DNA from: Egicoccus sp. AB-alg2
GTDB taxonomy: Bacteria > Actinomycetota > Nitriliruptoria > Nitriliruptorales > Nitriliruptoraceae
DNA length: 64,000 nucleotides
Assembly (NCBI RefSeq): GCF_041821065.1
Contig: NZ_JBGUAX010000003.1
Location: 248,001-312,000, forward strand
Direction: 5' to 3'
Both the position numbers and the translations under genes were made by a program. The notes below the pieces were generated by a model. It saw nothing but the letters and a program-made list of their open reading frames with translations, was not told the DNA's origin and ran no database searches. This document shows, piece after piece, positions 35,959 through 43,895 of the stretch (the stretch's first letter is position 1; each line of letters starts with the position of its first letter).

Positions 35959-37551
35959 ATGACCATCGACACCTCCGCCAGCACCTCGGGCACCGGTGCG
36001 TCGCCGTCCGCGACGTCGCCTGCACCCCGCTGGCTGGGCGCGGTCGCCGGCGTGCTGGCGGCGAGCGCGGCCCTCGGGGCCGGGGAGCTCGTCGCGGGCC
36101 TGCGCGCCGGCTGGCCCTCACCGGTCGTCGCGATCGCCGACCGGATCGTGGAGGCGTCGCCGCCCGCACTGACGTCATGGGCGATCGGAACCTTCGGCAC
36201 GAACGACAAGCCCCTGCTGATCGCCGGCATCGGCACCGTGCTGGCGGTGCTGGCGGCGCTGCTCGGCGTCCTGGCGACCCGCCGGCCGTTCGGCGCCGCC
36301 GCTGGCGTGGCAGGCCTCGGGACGGTGGGTGTGGCTGCCGGTCTGAACGCACCGGGGACGGGGGCGGGCGCGGGCGTTCCCGGCGTCGCCGCGACGTTCG
36401 TCGGTGTCGGCGCGCTGCTGGCCCTCGCCGCCGGACTGGCGCGGTACGGGGACACCAGCGCGGCGTCCGACGAGGCGGGCGACCTCGGCCGACGCCGCTT
36501 CCTCGTGGTCGCCGGGACCGTCGCCGCCGGCGCGATGGCCATGGGCACGGCCGGCCGCCTGCTGCTGTCGCGCTTCGACGTCGAGGCGGCGCGCGATGCC
36601 CTGGCCCTGCCGGCGCCCGTCGCCCGGCGCGATCTTCCGCCCCCCGCCGGTGCGGAACTCGCCGTGGACGGCATCACGCCCCTGATCACGCCCAACGACG
36701 CCTTCTACCGCATCGACACGGCACTGGCCGTGCCCCGCATCGACCCGGACACCCACGTACTCCGGGTCACCGGGATGGTCGAGCGGCCCTTGACGATCCC
36801 GTTCGCGGACCTGCTGCGCCGCGACCTGGTCGAGGTGCCGATCACGATGACGTGTGTCAGCAACGAGGTCGGCGGCGACCTGGTGGGCAACGCGGTGTGG
36901 CTGGGATTCCGGCTGCGCGAACTGCTCGACGAGGTCGGGGTCTCCTCCGAGGCCGACCAGGTCGTCGGCCGCTCCGTGGACGGTTACACGGGCGGATTCC
37001 CGGTCGCGGCCGCCTACGACCGTGACGCCCTGGTCGTGGTCGGCATGAACGGCGAACCGTTGCCGGCACAGCACGGCTTCCCGCTGCGGCTGGTCACCCC
37101 GGGGCTGTACGGCTACGTCGGCTCGACCAAGTGGTTGGCGGAGATCGAGCTCACCCGCTTCGACCGCTTCGACCACTACTGGGTCCCGCGCGGCTACGCG
37201 GCGCAGGCGCCGGTCAAGACCATGGCGCGCATCGACGTGCCCGGCGGCCGCGACGAGCTGGCGCCCGGGGAGCGGCCGATCGCGGGTGTCGCCTGGGCGC
37301 AGTCCCGCGGCGTCGCGAACGTCGAGGTCCAGGTCGACGACGGCGCCTGGCAGACAGCCGAGCTGGCCGAGGCGGTCAACGACGTCAGCTGGCGCCCCTG
37401 GGTGCTGTCCTGGCGGGCCACGCCGGGCCGTCACCGCATCCGCGTCCGCGCCACCGACGGCGACGGCGTGACGCAGCCGGAGACGCGCACGGGCGTGCGA
37501 CCCGACGGTGCGACCGGCTGGCACACGATCACGGTGCTCGTCACCGGCTGA
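35959..37551 (+). CDS. Membrane-anchored molybdopterin oxidoreductase (sulfite oxidase family)
   Basis: This 530-residue protein has an N-terminal membrane region of about four helices (residues 25-165), then a twin-arginine-like motif LGRRRFLVVAGT near residue 178 followed by a hydrophobic stretch, and an extracellular sulfite-oxidase-type domain. The Moco-binding Cys is in TMTCVSNEVGGDL (about 299); GYVGSTKWLAEI and a C-terminal Ig-like dimerisation domain follow. It probably reduces or oxidises a small oxyanion or a damaged methionine outside the membrane. An ATG start at 35959 is used but has a weak ribosome-binding site. Confidence 0.88.
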   Translation: MTIDTSASTSGTGASPSATSPAPRWLGAVAGVLAASAALGAGELVAGLRAGWPSPVVAIADRIVEASPPALTSWAIGTFGTNDKPLLIAGIGTVLAVLAALLGVLATRRPFGAAAGVAGLGTVGVAAGLNAPGTGAGAGVPGVAATFVGVGALLALAAGLARYGDTSAASDEAGDLGRRRFLVVAGTVAAGAMAMGTAGRLLLSRFDVEAARDALALPAPVARRDLPPPAGAELAVDGITPLITPNDAFYRIDTALAVPRIDPDTHVLRVTGMVERPLTIPFADLLRRDLVEVPITMTCVSNEVGGDLVGNAVWLGFRLRELLDEVGVSSEADQVVGRSVDGYTGGFPVAAAYDRDALVVVGMNGEPLPAQHGFPLRLVTPGLYGYVGSTKWLAEIELTRFDRFDHYWVPRGYAAQAPVKTMARIDVPGGRDELAPGERPIAGVAWAQSRGVANVEVQVDDGAWQTAELAEAVNDVSWRPWVLSWRATPGRHRIRVRATDGDGVTQPETRTGVRPDGATGWHTITVLVTG

Positions 37552-37558
37552 TGTCCGG

Positions 37559-38269
37559 TCAGCGGGTCTCGCCGACGCAGCCGTCCGTCGCGATGCAGTA
37601 ACGGTCGCCCTCGTCGTCGGACAGTTCCCGTGCGTACGCGCCGTTCCCGATGCGCTCCGCGGCCCGCTCCGCCGCCTCCTCGTCCGGGAACGGGCCTTCG
37701 ACGACGACCCACAGGCCAGGGTTCAGCGAGGGGTAGTGCGAGGACCACAGCAGACGGCCGCGGCCACGCTCGTCCAGACGCGCGAGGGCCTCGCGTTCGG
37801 TGAAGTCGTCCCCCCACAGCGAGGCCACGACGACGACCCATTGCCGCTCGCCGTCGCCCAGCGTGATCGGCGCCCGCTCGCAGTCCTCGAAGTCCCACGG
37901 CCGCGGGTCGTCGTGCTCGCTGGGATCGAGCTCCACCGCGCACACGTCGTCGAACTCGACGGTGACGACCTCGGGCTCGTCGCCCGCGTCGTCGCGGCCC
38001 TCTTCGGACTCGGCCGACTCCTCGGCCTGGTCGTCCTCGGCCCGGCCGTCCGCGGGCGCGTCCGCGTCGTCATCGGCGTCGTCGTCGCCTCCGGCGCCGG
38101 TACCGGACTCGACCGCGTCGGGCCGGCTGGCGACCGTCCCGGCGTCGAAGGGGCCGGTGTCGGTGACCAGGGCGACGACCCAGAGCGTCAGGGCCAGGAG
38201 CAACGGGGCGCCGAGCAGCACGGCGGCGCGCACCTGCTCGGGCCGCACGGCGATACGAGGGCGGGGCAC
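37559..38269 (-). CDS. Single-pass membrane protein with C-terminal SPOR-like domain
   Basis: This 236-residue protein has a basic N-terminus, one membrane helix at about 16-36 (VLLGAPLLLALTLWVVALV), a long acidic Asp/Glu linker (about residues 50-110) and a C-terminal domain. The domain reads QWVVVVASLWGD, then WVVVEGPFPDEEAAERAAERI and AYARELS, the pattern of a SPOR peptidoglycan-binding domain. It ends with a Cys pair (YCIATDGC). GTG at 38269 with CGAGG upstream. It is convergent with the oxidoreductase (7-base gap). Confidence 0.75.
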   Translation of the reverse strand: MPRPRIAVRPEQVRAAVLLGAPLLLALTLWVVALVTDTGPFDAGTVASRPDAVESGTGAGGDDDADDDADAPADGRAEDDQAEESAESEEGRDDAGDEPEVVTVEFDDVCAVELDPSEHDDPRPWDFEDCERAPITLGDGERQWVVVVASLWGDDFTEREALARLDERGRGRLLWSSHYPSLNPGLWVVVEGPFPDEEAAERAAERIGNGAYARELSDDEGDRYCIATDGCVGETR

Positions 38270-38297
38270 GACGGGCCTCGGGTGCGGGGGCGGCGGC

Positions 38298-38303
38298 ACG
38301 CTA
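38298..38303 (-). promoter_or_regulatory. -10-like hexamer TAGCGT before the SPOR-like gene
   Basis: Read on the minus strand, TAGCGT lies 28 bases before the GTG at 38269. Confidence 0.4.
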
Positions 38304-38468
38304 CCCGCCTCACGTGTGACGGCAGACCGACCAAGGGAGAGCACGGGGTACGGCGGTACGCCGTCTGACACGCGGTTGCGGAAGATGTGCCGATGCCGAA
38401 CGAAGCGCAACAGCAGTGTCCTCGCGCAAATCGTGCGGCCCCTCCGTTTCCCGGGCATATTGGGGACA

Positions 38469-38492
38469 ACACCACTTGCGCAAGGGTGGTGT
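38469..38492. promoter_or_regulatory. Inverted repeat upstream of the response regulator gene
   Basis: ACACCACTTGC is followed directly by GCAAGGGTGGTGT, its inverse with two extra bases. It lies 38 bases before the TTG at 38531 in a region less GC-rich than the surroundings. It could be an operator for the adjacent regulator. The rest of the 38270-38530 gap shows nothing else that I can name. Confidence 0.35.
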
Positions 38493-38530
38493 CAGCACCA
38501 CCATCTTTGGCGGAGCATCAGAGGACGCCG

Positions 38531-39193
38531 TTGCCGGAGCACGTGGACGACACCGCCGACTCCACCCGCGTGCTGCTGGTGGAGGACCATCGGGTGCTCG
38601 CCGAGGCCCTGGCCGAAGCGCTGGGCGCCGCCACCGGCGTCGAGGTGTGCGGTATCGCGACCACGCTCGCGGAGGCCCACACGCTGACCGCGGCCTGCGA
38701 ACCGGACGTCGTGGTCATGGACGTGCGGCTGCCGGACGGTGATGGTGCCGACGGGGTCCCGGACCTCCTGCGCCTCCGCCCGGAGGCCAAGGTCGTGTTG
38801 CTCTCGGCCAGCACGAGCCGGGACGTCCGCGCGCGCGCCGTGGAGGCCGGTGCGGCCGGCTTCCTGCCCAAGACCGCCGGGCTGGCGCAGATCCTCGAGG
38901 CCATCGAGCGGGTCGACGAGGGCGCGGTGCTGTTCAGCCCCGAGGACGTGCGGCTGGCCGCCGATCACCTGCGGCGCCAGCACCGGCGCGGCGGTCTGCT
39001 GACACCCCGGGAGCGCGAGGTGTTGCGGCTGCTCGCGGAGGGCGCGTCCACCGAGGACATCGCGGCCCGCCTGGTGATCTCCCCGCACACCGTCCGCAAC
39101 CACGTCCGCCACATCATCGAGAAGCTGGGCGTCCACACCAAGCTGGAAGCGGTGGCGGTCGCGACCCGCGAAGGACTCGTCGAAGCCGGCTGA
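38531..39193 (+). CDS. NarL/LuxR-family response regulator
   Basis: This 220-residue two-domain regulator has a receiver domain with VLLVEDHRVL, phospho-acceptor Asp in VVMDVRLPDGDG and Lys in FLPKTAG, followed by a LuxR-type DNA-binding domain LTPREREVLRLLAEGASTEDIAARLVISPHTVRNHV. TTG at 38531 is chosen because AGAGG is 7 bases upstream and the receiver begins soon after; the frame is open further upstream but reads like non-coding sequence. It lies 22 bases before the kinase gene, so the two form a cognate pair. Confidence 0.9.
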   Translation: MPEHVDDTADSTRVLLVEDHRVLAEALAEALGAATGVEVCGIATTLAEAHTLTAACEPDVVVMDVRLPDGDGADGVPDLLRLRPEAKVVLLSASTSRDVRARAVEAGAAGFLPKTAGLAQILEAIERVDEGAVLFSPEDVRLAADHLRRQHRRGGLLTPREREVLRLLAEGASTEDIAARLVISPHTVRNHVRHIIEKLGVHTKLEAVAVATREGLVEAG

Positions 39194-39215
39194 CCTGTGG
39201 CGAATCGGGGTGGGC

Positions 39216-41318
39216 ATGACGGACACGCTCGCGCAGTGGTCCCTCTACGACCTCGTGCCTCGACCGATCCTCGTGACGGACGGTGATGGGCGCGTGCACC
39301 ACGCCAACCGGGAGGCGCTCGCGGTGCTGCGACTCCCGACCGACGACGCGGCCGCAACGGCCCGATGGACGGACGTGGTCGCCCCCGCCGACGTCGCCGC
39401 CGCCGAAGCGTGGTGGGTGCGTGTACGACGTGGCGCGTCGAACGAGCCGTTGCGGGCACGCCTCCGCGCGGGCGTCGGTCCCCACGAGGTACACGTGTCG
39501 CCGGTCGAGGGCCGGAGCGGCGCCGACCGGTTCGTCGTGACGCTGCTGCCCGCACCGTCCGAGCCGGCGGACGGGCCGCGCCCGAACCGGCTCGCGGCAC
39601 GCCTCGCCGATGCGGCACCGGTCGGGCTCGGGATCATGGACCAGGACTTCCGGTTCCGCTACGTGAACCAGGAGCTGGCCGCGACCAACGGCCGCTCCGC
39701 CGAAGAGCATCTCGGGCGGCGCCTCGTGGAGATCGCGCCGCACCTGTTCCCGGAGGTCGAACCGCTGCTGCAGCAGGGTCTGTCGGGCTGGCACATCGTC
39801 GAGGCGCCGTTGACGGGCCCGGCGGTCACCGACCCGGACGAGATCCGTCACTGGCTGGTCAGCTACTTCCCGATCGAGCTGGACGCGGGCGAAGCCGGCG
39901 TCGGGGTCGTGGTCAGGGACGCCACGGTCCGGGTGAGGCAGGCCGAAGAAGCGGCGAAGAGTCAGCGGCTGCTGGCCGAGGCCGAGCGACTGGCCGCACT
40001 CGGCAGCTGGGAGTGGGAGATCGCCCCGGACGTGGCACGTGTCTCCGACGGGCTCCGGGCGATGTTCGGCCTGGAACCCGACGAGCCGTTCAGCTACGCG
40101 GTGCTGCTGTCGATGCTGGAGCCCGCCGACCGGGGACGGTTCGACGCGCGGGTCCGCGACGCGCTCGCCGTGGGAGGTCGCTTCGAGGCGACGTATCGCC
40201 TGGTCCGTCGCGACGGCGTACGACGACTGGTCCACGAGCGCGGCGAGTGCGTGGTCCGCGACGGCGAGACGGTCGCGATGTTCGGCACGGTGCAGGACAT
40301 CACCGAACAGGCCGAACTGTCGGAGCGCGCCCGCCTCTGGGCGACCCTGGCCCAGCACCTGCCCAACGGGATCGTCGTGTGGGACGGCGTGGGCGTGCCG
40401 GAGCCGGCCCTCCTCCGGGTGCTCGCCGTCAATCCCGCCTTCGACGGGATGTACGAGGTGGAGGCGGAGTCGCCGATCGGCGTCACGCTGCGCGAGGTGT
40501 TCGGTCACGACCTGGCGCAGCGGTTCGACGACGACCTGCGCCGGTTGTTGTCGGACGGCGTCACCGTCCACCTCGGCGACGTCCGGCTGCCGTCGCGCTT
40601 CGGGTCCCGCGTGCTCGAGGTGGTGGCGTTCGGGCTCCCGCGCCAGCGCTACGGCATGGCGTTCGAGGACGTGACCGAGCAGCGGGCACTGCAGCAGGAG
40701 CGCGCCGACCTGCTGCGGCGCAGCGTGACCGCCGCCGACGACGAGCGGCAACGCGTCGCCGAACAGTTGCACGACGACGTGGTGCAGTCGTTGAGCGCCG
40801 CGCTGCTGCGGCTCGACCTGGCCGAGCAGACCGTCGACCGACCGCTGGACCGCATTCGTGAGCCCGTCGGCGATGCCATCGCCGTGCTGCGGCGCACGAT
40901 CATGGAACTGGCGTCCGCCGACATCGTGCGCCAGGGCCTGCAGACGGCCGTCGGCAACTACGCCGACCGGCTCCTCGCCGTGGACGGCATCGAGGTCACC
41001 ACCAGCTTCGCCGTCGAGGAGCACCTCGACGACGACACGCTCCTCGGTGCCTACCGGATCATCCAGGAGGCCCTCGCCAACGTCCGTCGGCACGCGCATG
41101 CCACCCACGTGCGTGTCGTCGTCCGCCGCACCGACGACGGCTGGCTGCGGGGCGAGGTCCTCGACGACGGCAGCGGCATCCCCGACGGTGTCACCGCGCC
41201 ACCCGGCCACCTCGGCCTGCGGCTCATGCGCGAACGTGCCGAGGTGCTCGGGGGCCACGTCGAGGTCGTGCGACGGCGACCGCGCGGGACGGCCGTGCGC
41301 TGGCGCCTGCCCGCGTGA
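39216..41318 (+). CDS. Soluble multi-PAS sensor histidine kinase (NarX/DesK-type HisKA_3)
   Basis: This 700-residue protein has no membrane helix. Four PAS-like regions occupy about residues 10-115, 130-250, 255-365 and 375-490; the third ends in the typical RLVHERGECVVRDG-TVQDITEQ. They are followed by a HisKA_3 dimerisation domain with the phospho-acceptor His in VAEQLHDDVVQSLSA and a HATPase domain (EALANVRRHAHA, DDGSGIP, HLGLRLMRERAEVLGG). All catalytic boxes are intact. It probably senses a cytoplasmic signal; no haem- or flavin-binding residue can be assigned. ATG at 39216 chosen; a GTG six bases earlier is possible. Likely partner: the regulator at 38531. Confidence 0.92.
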   Translation: MTDTLAQWSLYDLVPRPILVTDGDGRVHHANREALAVLRLPTDDAAATARWTDVVAPADVAAAEAWWVRVRRGASNEPLRARLRAGVGPHEVHVSPVEGRSGADRFVVTLLPAPSEPADGPRPNRLAARLADAAPVGLGIMDQDFRFRYVNQELAATNGRSAEEHLGRRLVEIAPHLFPEVEPLLQQGLSGWHIVEAPLTGPAVTDPDEIRHWLVSYFPIELDAGEAGVGVVVRDATVRVRQAEEAAKSQRLLAEAERLAALGSWEWEIAPDVARVSDGLRAMFGLEPDEPFSYAVLLSMLEPADRGRFDARVRDALAVGGRFEATYRLVRRDGVRRLVHERGECVVRDGETVAMFGTVQDITEQAELSERARLWATLAQHLPNGIVVWDGVGVPEPALLRVLAVNPAFDGMYEVEAESPIGVTLREVFGHDLAQRFDDDLRRLLSDGVTVHLGDVRLPSRFGSRVLEVVAFGLPRQRYGMAFEDVTEQRALQQERADLLRRSVTAADDERQRVAEQLHDDVVQSLSAALLRLDLAEQTVDRPLDRIREPVGDAIAVLRRTIMELASADIVRQGLQTAVGNYADRLLAVDGIEVTTSFAVEEHLDDDTLLGAYRIIQEALANVRRHAHATHVRVVVRRTDDGWLRGEVLDDGSGIPDGVTAPPGHLGLRLMRERAEVLGGHVEVVRRRPRGTAVRWRLPA

Positions 41319-41319
41319 C

Positions 41320-41706
41320 TCAGCGCTCGCCGGTCGACTCGGCGGTCAGTTCACGTACCACGGCGATCAGCCGCGAACTGCGTTCGCCCTTCGCCACGTA
41401 GGCGTCCACGCCCGCCTCCGACATCTCCCGCCGGCTGGACGCCTCGTCGTAGGCGGAGAACGCCACCAGACGGGTGCCGGACGACACCGCCCGGATGCCG
41501 CGCGCGGCCGCGGCACCACCGCCGGGCATCCGCACGTCCAGCACCGCGGCCTCCGGCCGCAGACGACCGCATGCCGCGATAGCGGCGTCGGCGCTGTCGA
41601 CCTCCGCGACGACCGTCAGACCGGCCGCTGCCTCGAGAACCTCGATCAGCGCTTCGCGGACCTGGGCATCGTCGTCCGCCACCACGATCCTCACCGGCGC
41701 AGTCAA
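41320..41706 (-). CDS. Stand-alone receiver-domain protein
   Basis: This 128-residue single receiver domain has the acidic cluster VVADDDAQVREAL, phospho-acceptor Asp in VLDVRMPGGG, the Ser/Thr position in LVAFSAYDE and Lys in AYVAKGERSS. There is no output domain, so it would act as a phosphate sink or an allosteric partner, perhaps of the kinase it faces. TTG at 41706 is fixed by GGAGG 5 bases upstream; a longer ATG version adds 46 unstructured residues and has no support. Its stop is 1 base from the kinase stop. Confidence 0.85.
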   Translation of the reverse strand: MTAPVRIVVADDDAQVREALIEVLEAAAGLTVVAEVDSADAAIAACGRLRPEAAVLDVRMPGGGAAAARGIRAVSSGTRLVAFSAYDEASSRREMSEAGVDAYVAKGERSSRLIAVVRELTAESTGER

Positions 41707-42107
41707 CCGTCCTCCATCGATGGGCGCAGCCGACACGTCGTGTGCCGGCGCGGTCACCCGCGCACGCCGGGGTGGTACGGGCCCGGCGACGCCGCCAACA
41801 TGGTCCGGGACGACCGCCCGCGGAGCATGCCCCAGGTCCGTCAACCGGCACCGGACACATCTGAGTCATGTACGAACAGCACGACTGTGGCTGCCGGACG
41901 TCGCCGAGGCCGTGCATCATGGCCACGGCGTCGACGTTCCCCTTCCCCGGGTCCCCCGCCGACGGCCGGCACCACTGCACGGTTCCCCCCGTCCGGGCAG
42001 TTCGTGTGCCGGCCGTCGCCCGGCCCGGACGTGGGTGGGCCGCCCTCCGGTCGCCTCCACCGAGCGCTTCGACGCCCACCACCAGCCCCCGCACCGTGAG
42101 ATCCCCG

Positions 42108-42338
42108 ATGCTCACCAGTCGCTACGACCGTGAACACGCCTGCGAATCGCGCTGCAGCGCGCGCGGCAGCACGACCGTCCACATCCACGGACGCCCCTTC
42201 CGGTTCTGCCGGCACCACGCCCGCGCGGTCGAGGCCGCGTACACCGCGGACGACCTGGGCGCCGAGCGCGCCGCCGTCGCCACCCTCGTGCGACACGAAG
42301 CCGACCGGCCGCGCCGAGCGCCGAGGAACGAGCCGTGA
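42108..42338 (+). CDS. Small Cys/His-rich protein (DUF7455-like)
   Basis: This 76-residue protein contains ACESRCSARGSTTVHIHGRPFRFCRHHARAVEAA, with a Cys-x3-Cys pair, a beta-hairpin and FCRHH. This layout closely resembles the small actinobacterial DUF7455 proteins and suggests one bound metal. ATG at 42108 is chosen because the conserved core begins soon after; an upstream ATG in frame at 41868 would add 80 residues of unlike composition. It has a basic C-terminus and overlaps the next mini-gene (GTGA). The 41707-42107 gap before it has no other supported feature. Confidence 0.7.
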   Translation: MLTSRYDREHACESRCSARGSTTVHIHGRPFRFCRHHARAVEAAYTADDLGAERAAVATLVRHEADRPRRAPRNEP

Positions 42339-42409
42339 GGGGCACCTACTGTCCACACGGCATCTACGTCACCACCCACGTCGGCTGCACCGACTGCGGC
42401 CGGCGGTGA
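42335..42409 (+). CDS. 24-residue Cys/His mini-protein, coupled to the preceding gene
   Basis: A GTG inside the stop of the DUF7455-like gene opens a 24-codon frame (MRGTYCPHGIYVTTHVGCTDCGRR is 24 residues; its key residues are Cys6, His8, His15, Cys18 and Cys21). CPHG and CTDCG could form a tiny zinc knuckle. GAGGAA lies about 8 bases upstream. Codons are consistently G/C in the third position, in line with real genes here. It is too short for a statistical test, so its reality rests on the overlap, the ribosome-binding site and the metal-ligand spacing. Confidence 0.55.
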   Translation: MRGTYCPHGIYVTTHVGCTDCGRR

Positions 42410-42425
42410 CGACGCCGCGGCGGCC

Positions 42426-43895
42426 TCAGCCCCAGGTGTGGACCGGCTCGTTGCTGCGCATCCCCGCCATGTAGCGCCTGGTCATCTCGATGATGGCGTC
42501 CTGGCGGTTCGCGCCCTCGTCGAGGAGCTTGCGCACGGTGCGGACCTGCCAGCCGGCCCCCGTGATGCGCCGCAGGCAGCGCTGCTCGATGATCCCGAGG
42601 TAGTGGTCCCGGTCGCGGCGGTCGACCTGCCAGGCGTCGAGCCCCTTGTGGGCCAGCGGCAGCAGGGTGCGCAGCACCAGTTCACTGGCCGGGACGGTGC
42701 CCGCGCCGGGCCAGAACAGCTCGGACTCGATGCCGTGCTTGGCCGCGGAGAAGAAGTTGTCACAGGCGGCGGCGAACGACAGCTGCCGGTCGATCGGCGG
42801 GTCGAGCTCGGCCAGCGCGCGGACCAGGCCGAAGTAGAACGCGGCGTTGGCGACCGTGTCGACCACCGACGGTCCGGCCGGCAGCACCCGGTTCTCCACG
42901 CGCAGGTGCGGCTTGCCGCGCGCGACCGCGTAGACCGGCCGGTTCCAGCGGTAGACGGTGCCGTTGTGCAGCACCAGCTCCGGCAGGTGGGGCACACCGC
43001 CGTCCTCGAGCACCTTCTCCGGTTCCTCCTCGTCCAGCAGCGGCAGCAGCGACGGGAAGTAGCGCACGTTCTCGTCGAACAGCTCCAGCAGCGAGCCGAT
43101 CCACTTCTCCCCGAACCACACCCGCGGCCGCACGCCCTGCGCCGCCAGTTCCTCCGTGCGGGTGTCGATCGACTGCTCGAACAGCGCGATGCGGGTCTCG
43201 CGCCACAACTCCTTGCCGAGCAGGAACGGCGAGTTGGCACCCACGGCGACCTGGGCGGCGGCGGCCGCCTGCGCCGCGTTCCACACCGTCGGGAAGCCCT
43301 CCGGGCTGACCTGCAGGTGTAGCTGCACGGACGTGGCCGCGGCCTCCATCGTGATCGAGCTGACCCGCGTCAGCAGCTTCTCCGGCCCTTCGATCTCCAC
43401 CTGCAGATCCTCGCCGCGGGCGGCCAGGATCTGCTCGTTGAGCAGGTGGTAGCGCGGGTTGGGGGACAGGTTCTGGATCGCGATGTCCAGGTCGGAGAGC
43501 GTCGGCATGATGCCGATCATGACCACGTGTGCGTCCAGCTCCTGCGCGCGCCGGTGGGCGTGCAGGAAGGAGGTCTCCAGCTCCTCCTCGATCTCGCGGA
43601 ACACGGTGCCGACCAGCTTGTGCGGCGCGAGGTTGAACTCGATGTTGAACTGCGCGAGCTCGGTCTGGAAGTCCTCGGACTCCAGCCGGCTGAGCAGTTC
43701 CGCGTTGATCATCATCGGCGCGCCGTCGGTGTCGACGACGTAGAACTCCACCTCGACGCCCATGAGCTTGCGCTCGGTCTCGAACGCGCCCGCCTCCAAC
43801 ATGCGGCGGAGGACGTCGACGTCGCGCTTCACCTTCTCGCGGTAGCGCTGCCGGTCCTCCCGCGTGAAGCGCACCTCGTCGATGTCGCGACCCAT
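42426..43895 (-). CDS. Glutamate-cysteine ligase family protein (GCS2)
   Basis: This 489-residue carboxylate-amine ligase of the GCS2 family joins glutamate to cysteine, or a related amine, using ATP. Marks include MGVEVEFYVVDTDG, the FNIEFNLAPHKL strand, TSVQLHLQVSPEGF with metal/ATP residues, and LRVENRVLPAGPSVVDTVANAAFY. Because Mca at 33851 implies mycothiol, this enzyme may serve another gamma-glutamyl product such as ergothioneine (EgtA type) rather than glutathione; substrate is unproven. ATG start. Confidence 0.85.
   Translation of the reverse strand: MGRDIDEVRFTREDRQRYREKVKRDVDVLRRMLEAGAFETERKLMGVEVEFYVVDTDGAPMMINAELLSRLESEDFQTELAQFNIEFNLAPHKLVGTVFREIEEELETSFLHAHRRAQELDAHVVMIGIMPTLSDLDIAIQNLSPNPRYHLLNEQILAARGEDLQVEIEGPEKLLTRVSSITMEAAATSVQLHLQVSPEGFPTVWNAAQAAAAAQVAVGANSPFLLGKELWRETRIALFEQSIDTRTEELAAQGVRPRVWFGEKWIGSLLELFDENVRYFPSLLPLLDEEEPEKVLEDGGVPHLPELVLHNGTVYRWNRPVYAVARGKPHLRVENRVLPAGPSVVDTVANAAFYFGLVRALAELDPPIDRQLSFAAACDNFFSAAKHGIESELFWPGAGTVPASELVLRTLLPLAHKGLDAWQVDRRDRDHYLGIIEQRCLRRITGAGWQVRTVRKLLDEGANRQDAIIEMTRRYMAGMRSNEPVHTWG

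Follow-up and report, generated by a model that had tools for sequence, protein, structure and literature searches.

The window, by which we mean the whole 64,000-nucleotide stretch of Egicoccus sp. AB-alg2 DNA that was analysed, carries a gene for a 76-residue protein followed directly by a frame of 24 codons (Table 1). The larger frame translates as MLTSRYDREHACESRCSARG...FRFCRHHARAVE...RNEP and the smaller one, referred to here as the mini-frame, as MRGTYCPHGIYVTTHVGCTDCGRR, which holds Cys6-Pro-His8 and Cys18-Thr-Asp-Cys21. The two overlap in a GTGA, with the start codon of the mini-frame at 42335-42337 and the stop codon of the 76-residue gene at 42336-42338, and the mini-frame is read in the -1 register relative to the gene before it. 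The original prediction described this arrangement correctly: both frames lie where it had placed them, the Cys6-Pro-His8 and Cys18-x2-Cys21 are present and the second frame does start within the stop of the first. Scans for promoters and terminators came back empty.

The 76-residue gene and the mini-frame lie at the right edge of a 4.9 kb segment, which also contains a 299-residue gene, a response regulator, a PAS histidine kinase and a receiver-only regulator. At this site, three congeners have nothing that corresponds to it. The glutamate-cysteine-ligase-2-like (GCS2) gene on its right is convergent, lies 16 nt from the mini-frame stop and is 92-95% identical in the three congeners. In congener G003 it lies tail to tail with the oxidoreductase gene that flanks the segment on the left, and there is nothing between them. 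At the same site G001 has a gene for a 147-residue protein and G002 a fasciclin-domain gene. As the content differs between G001, G002, G003 and the genome studied here, the site varies between species. The multi-PAS histidine kinase had no match at E 1e-80 in the 34 other genomes of the family. In GC content the segment (72.9%) is no different from the rest (73.2%), and the 299-residue gene has no Pfam match. The segment is accessory, carried by this species and missing in the sampled congeners.

Two features of the signalling genes are worth recording. With the starts given in the program-made list, the LuxR-type regulator and the 299-residue gene, which diverge, overlap by about 70 bases; as the receiver domain of the regulator starts near residue 61, translation of the regulator probably begins further inside, near 38540. 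The receiver-only response regulator has no output domain by Pfam and is divergent from the DUF7455-like gene.

Table 1. Features of the locus, in positions of the window.
Feature	Position	Strand	Remarks
Molybdopterin (Mo-co) oxidoreductase homologue	36112-37548		Left flank of the segment
Segment without counterpart at the site in three congeners	37550..42410	.	In congener G003 (L032) the flanking genes are separated by 30 nt
299-residue gene	37559-38458	-	In the segment
LuxR-type response regulator	38387-39193	+	In the segment
PAS histidine kinase		+	In the segment
Receiver-only response regulator	41320-41844	-	In the segment
76-residue gene, DUF7455-type (PF24254-like), putative zinc-binding	42108..42338	+	ATG to TGA; C12, C16, C34, H36, H37 signature
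GAGG, 4-nt Shine-Dalgarno-like match	42323..42326	+	8 nt before the GTG start, inside the 76-residue coding sequence
24-codon mini-frame, C6-P-H8 and C18-x2-C21, lineage-restricted, putative	42335..42409	+	GTG to TGA; GTGA overlap with the preceding stop
GCS2-like gene	42426..43895	-	Pfam GCS2 E 1.2e-7; right flank of the segment

The 76-residue protein

Compared with the Pfam family DUF7455 (PF24254), the 76-residue protein scored 20.9 bits (E 2.6e-4), and 20.7 bits when the genome was searched. Both scores lie under the curated gathering cut-off of 27 bits, and we therefore call the protein DUF7455-type rather than a formal member of PF24254. A profile built from six same-family homologues gave it 20.5 bits, against 8.3 bits for the best of 2000 shuffles. 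In the alignment with these homologues C12, C16, G28, F33, C34, H36 and H37 are invariant, and the protein has the pair of cysteines followed by G-x4-F-C-x-H-H that marks DUF7455. The likeness to this family that had been noted at the outset thus holds, as the cysteines and histidines match those of the homologues. The excess of GC3 over GC2 in the gene is strong (p = 3e-5).

The protein shares with DUF7455 its small size and the invariant Cys...Cys...Gly...Phe-Cys-x-His-His core, and within its own taxonomic family it most resembles the subgroup with VHGxxFxFCxHH. It differs from the aligned homologues in most other positions, being only 22-28% identical to them, and its two cysteines stand further apart than in the CxxC that the commonest type has. 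Judged by its sequence, we take the 76-residue frame to be a real gene, a divergent member of a known but uncharacterised actinobacterial small-protein family. A search of the available literature for DUF7455 found nothing. Within the same class there is also a DUF7455-type subgroup with a strict GQDF(H/Y)FCxHH core (loci L042-L047, L199, L200, L204, L206 and L207, placed around base 1500 where room allows). Some of its members fall below the Pfam cut-off, and the subgroup could be used to widen PF24254.

An AlphaFold model made from the single sequence (mean pLDDT 69) predicts a hairpin and then a helix that starts at the Cys-x-His-His, which is compatible with a zinc-finger-like fold. Searching the PDB with this mediocre model gave no match better than E 0.9. 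The spacing of the cysteines and histidines, and only that, suggests that the protein probably folds around one zinc ion, with CxxxC and CxHH as the ligands. No relatives of the protein were found in phages (tblastn), in plasmids or among viral sequences, and PHROGs returned only matches at E 0.17-0.18.

The mini-frame compared with chance

The Cys/His arrangement of the mini-frame, CPHG followed by CTDCG, is rare among random ORFs. The exact spaced DNA motif matched once in the window and never in 100 shuffles. A looser pattern, C-x(1-3)-[CH]...C-x2-C, was present in one of the 216 ORFs of 18-60 residues in the window; among 8373 simulated ORFs it occurred in 5 (0.06%), which predicts about 0.13 per window, for a pattern that was chosen post hoc.

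The other signals are common in chance ORFs here. The ribosome-binding site proposed for the mini-frame is there in the sense that a GAGG stands 8 nt upstream, but neither this match nor the stop/start overlap rises above background frequency. Start codons taken arbitrarily from the window have a Shine-Dalgarno match as good as GAGG in 28% of cases. Open stretches of 60 codons or more have 541 stops in the window, and 280 of these overlap an NTGA start; 76 of the 280 lead into a frame of 18-60 residues, and 18 of those 76 have a Shine-Dalgarno match of at least 4 nt. Codon composition is similarly unremarkable. GC3 is 22/24 against a GC2 of 15/24 (p = 0.018, or 0.004 without the Cys codons), an excess equalled or beaten by 46 of the 216 short ORFs in the window, most of which, we think, are shadow frames of real genes. 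The codon log-odds of the mini-frame (0.08 bits per codon) do not discriminate either, as that value is equalled or exceeded by 9 of 81 shadow ORFs. For the mini-frame, the NTGA overlap, the 4-nt match and the codon composition are uninformative.

The 24-residue peptide could be a zinc-binding micro-protein with CxH and CxxC as its four ligands, translated by coupling and acting together with the 76-residue protein, which it might regulate or with which it might complete a shared metal site. Four plausible ligands at a suitable spacing that is rare by chance, the coupling geometry of the GTGA, the well-spaced GAGG and the high GC3 all speak for such a partner. Against it stand the ligands of the 76-residue protein itself, in which C12, C16, C34 and H36/H37 would already be enough for one zinc ion, and the results of the searches for relatives described below. 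We consider a functional partner unlikely.

Relatives of the mini-frame and of the pair

The other 34 genomes of the family (35 with the genome studied here, which was also searched whole) yielded no homologue of the mini-frame. Besides the window itself, there was none in 66 genomes of the class or in 396 sampled genomes of the phylum, and a tblastn search of phages was also negative. The collection has one genome per species; for the class all of its genomes were searched, and for the phylum a sample of about 400. The sensitivity of a 24-residue query falls fast with divergence. Weak matches, for example at L040 and L005-L007 (E 0.03-0.8), were taken as chance, and L040, when read, has no comparable short frame with cysteines. 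In the three congeners the absence of the mini-frame coincides with the absence of the whole segment at the orthologous site. The mini-frame, for which there are no orthologues, may still be under selection.

Scanning 84,980 species with an exact pattern, which demanded a Tyr as well as the exact spacing, gave a single match, CPHGCYLRSLPCCLACG in a 71-codon stop-to-stop stretch of a Coriobacteriaceae contig. Among the matches listed from a loose, motif-biased scan, many frames of IMG/VR contigs have CPHG...CxxCG with variable spacing. They share the short motif with the mini-frame, but they were retrieved by the motif itself and show no similarity beyond it. Many of them are probably chance frames.

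We also read the sequence downstream of a further 31 genes of the DUF7455 type, drawn from this taxonomic family, from other families in the class and from the phylum beyond it. None of the 31 has a coupled CxH/CxxC mini-frame behind it, and a few have chance Cys-containing frames. DUF7455-type proteins therefore generally come without such a partner and do not need one. The original prediction had suggested that the mini-frame and the 76-residue protein may form a metal-binding pair, and had proposed looking for CPHG and CTDCG mini-frames downstream of DUF7455-like genes; the lack of a coupled Cys/His mini-frame of this kind at the 31 loci, together with the absence of the mini-frame from the class and phylum genomes, leaves the idea of two halves of a conserved pair unsupported.

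The same comparison bears on the origin of the mini-frame. Its -1 register and the overlapping stop might indicate that the 24 codons are the C-terminal remnant of a longer DUF7455-type protein, either split off by a frameshift or still reached by -1 frameshifting. However, the other DUF7455-type proteins, 31 in number, all lack a CPHG...CxxCG tail, and the search of the phylum sample with the 24 residues met no longer protein ending in such a tail. A remnant is therefore very improbable.

Discussion

It seems likely, at roughly 65%, that the locus consists of a divergent DUF7455-type gene in an accessory segment, followed by a mini-frame that is incidental or a proto-gene and has no selected role. 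The 76-residue gene is most likely expressed and would yield a small zinc-binding protein. Some of the ribosomes that end at its TGA may reinitiate at the GTGA and produce the 24-residue peptide. On this view the mini-frame is most likely incidental, or else a young proto-gene with low-level translation through coupling, and has no metal-binding role for which it was selected. That it is lineage-restricted, and incidental or newly arisen, is the most likely reading of its distribution.

Many of the short ORFs translated in Mycobacterium tuberculosis show no sign of being under selection (PMC9094748). The mini-frame resembles these pervasively translated ORFs in being short, unannotated and unconserved, with weak start signals, in a GC-rich actinobacterium. 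The difference is that translation was measured in M. tuberculosis, whereas for the mini-frame we infer it. The same work cautions that functional Cys-rich regulatory short ORFs can be without codon bias (PMC9094748), and we therefore leave a functional mini-frame a small but real share of the probability.

Besides the rarity of its Cys/His arrangement, two points speak against an incidental mini-frame. Its cysteines and histidine look like a minimal zinc knuckle, and it lies directly behind the gene of a putative zinc protein, in the coupled position expected of a real partner. A more specific reading is a species-restricted zinc-knuckle peptide of 24 residues, coupled stop to start, that partners the DUF7455-type protein and came into being only recently where the species-specific two-component segment ends. 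We think this specific version slightly less probable again than a functional partner in general.

A regulatory role would be different in kind. The mini-frame could be a Cys-containing short ORF that senses the supply of cysteine by attenuation, in the manner of the mycobacterial Cys-rich ORFs (mentioned in PMC9094748), and the Cys codons and the adjacent glutamate-cysteine-ligase-like gene would suit this. Gene order mostly refutes it. The mini-frame lies downstream, not upstream, of the gene that is read in its direction, and the gene after it is convergent; as no co-directional gene follows, there is nothing to control in cis. Nor do the cysteines form a run, and the RNA fold just past the stop is not unusual (z 0.56). 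Attenuation thus has very little chance of being correct.

An incidental frame or young proto-gene behind a DUF7455-type gene remains our preferred reading, and the locus illustrates how little a stop/start overlap, even with a short Shine-Dalgarno match, says for a mini-gene in a genome of 73% GC. A functional mini-frame would rank with the smallest proteins that have a zinc site, and would exemplify gene birth beside the gene of a zinc protein. As it stands, the locus adds one divergent protein of the DUF7455 type.
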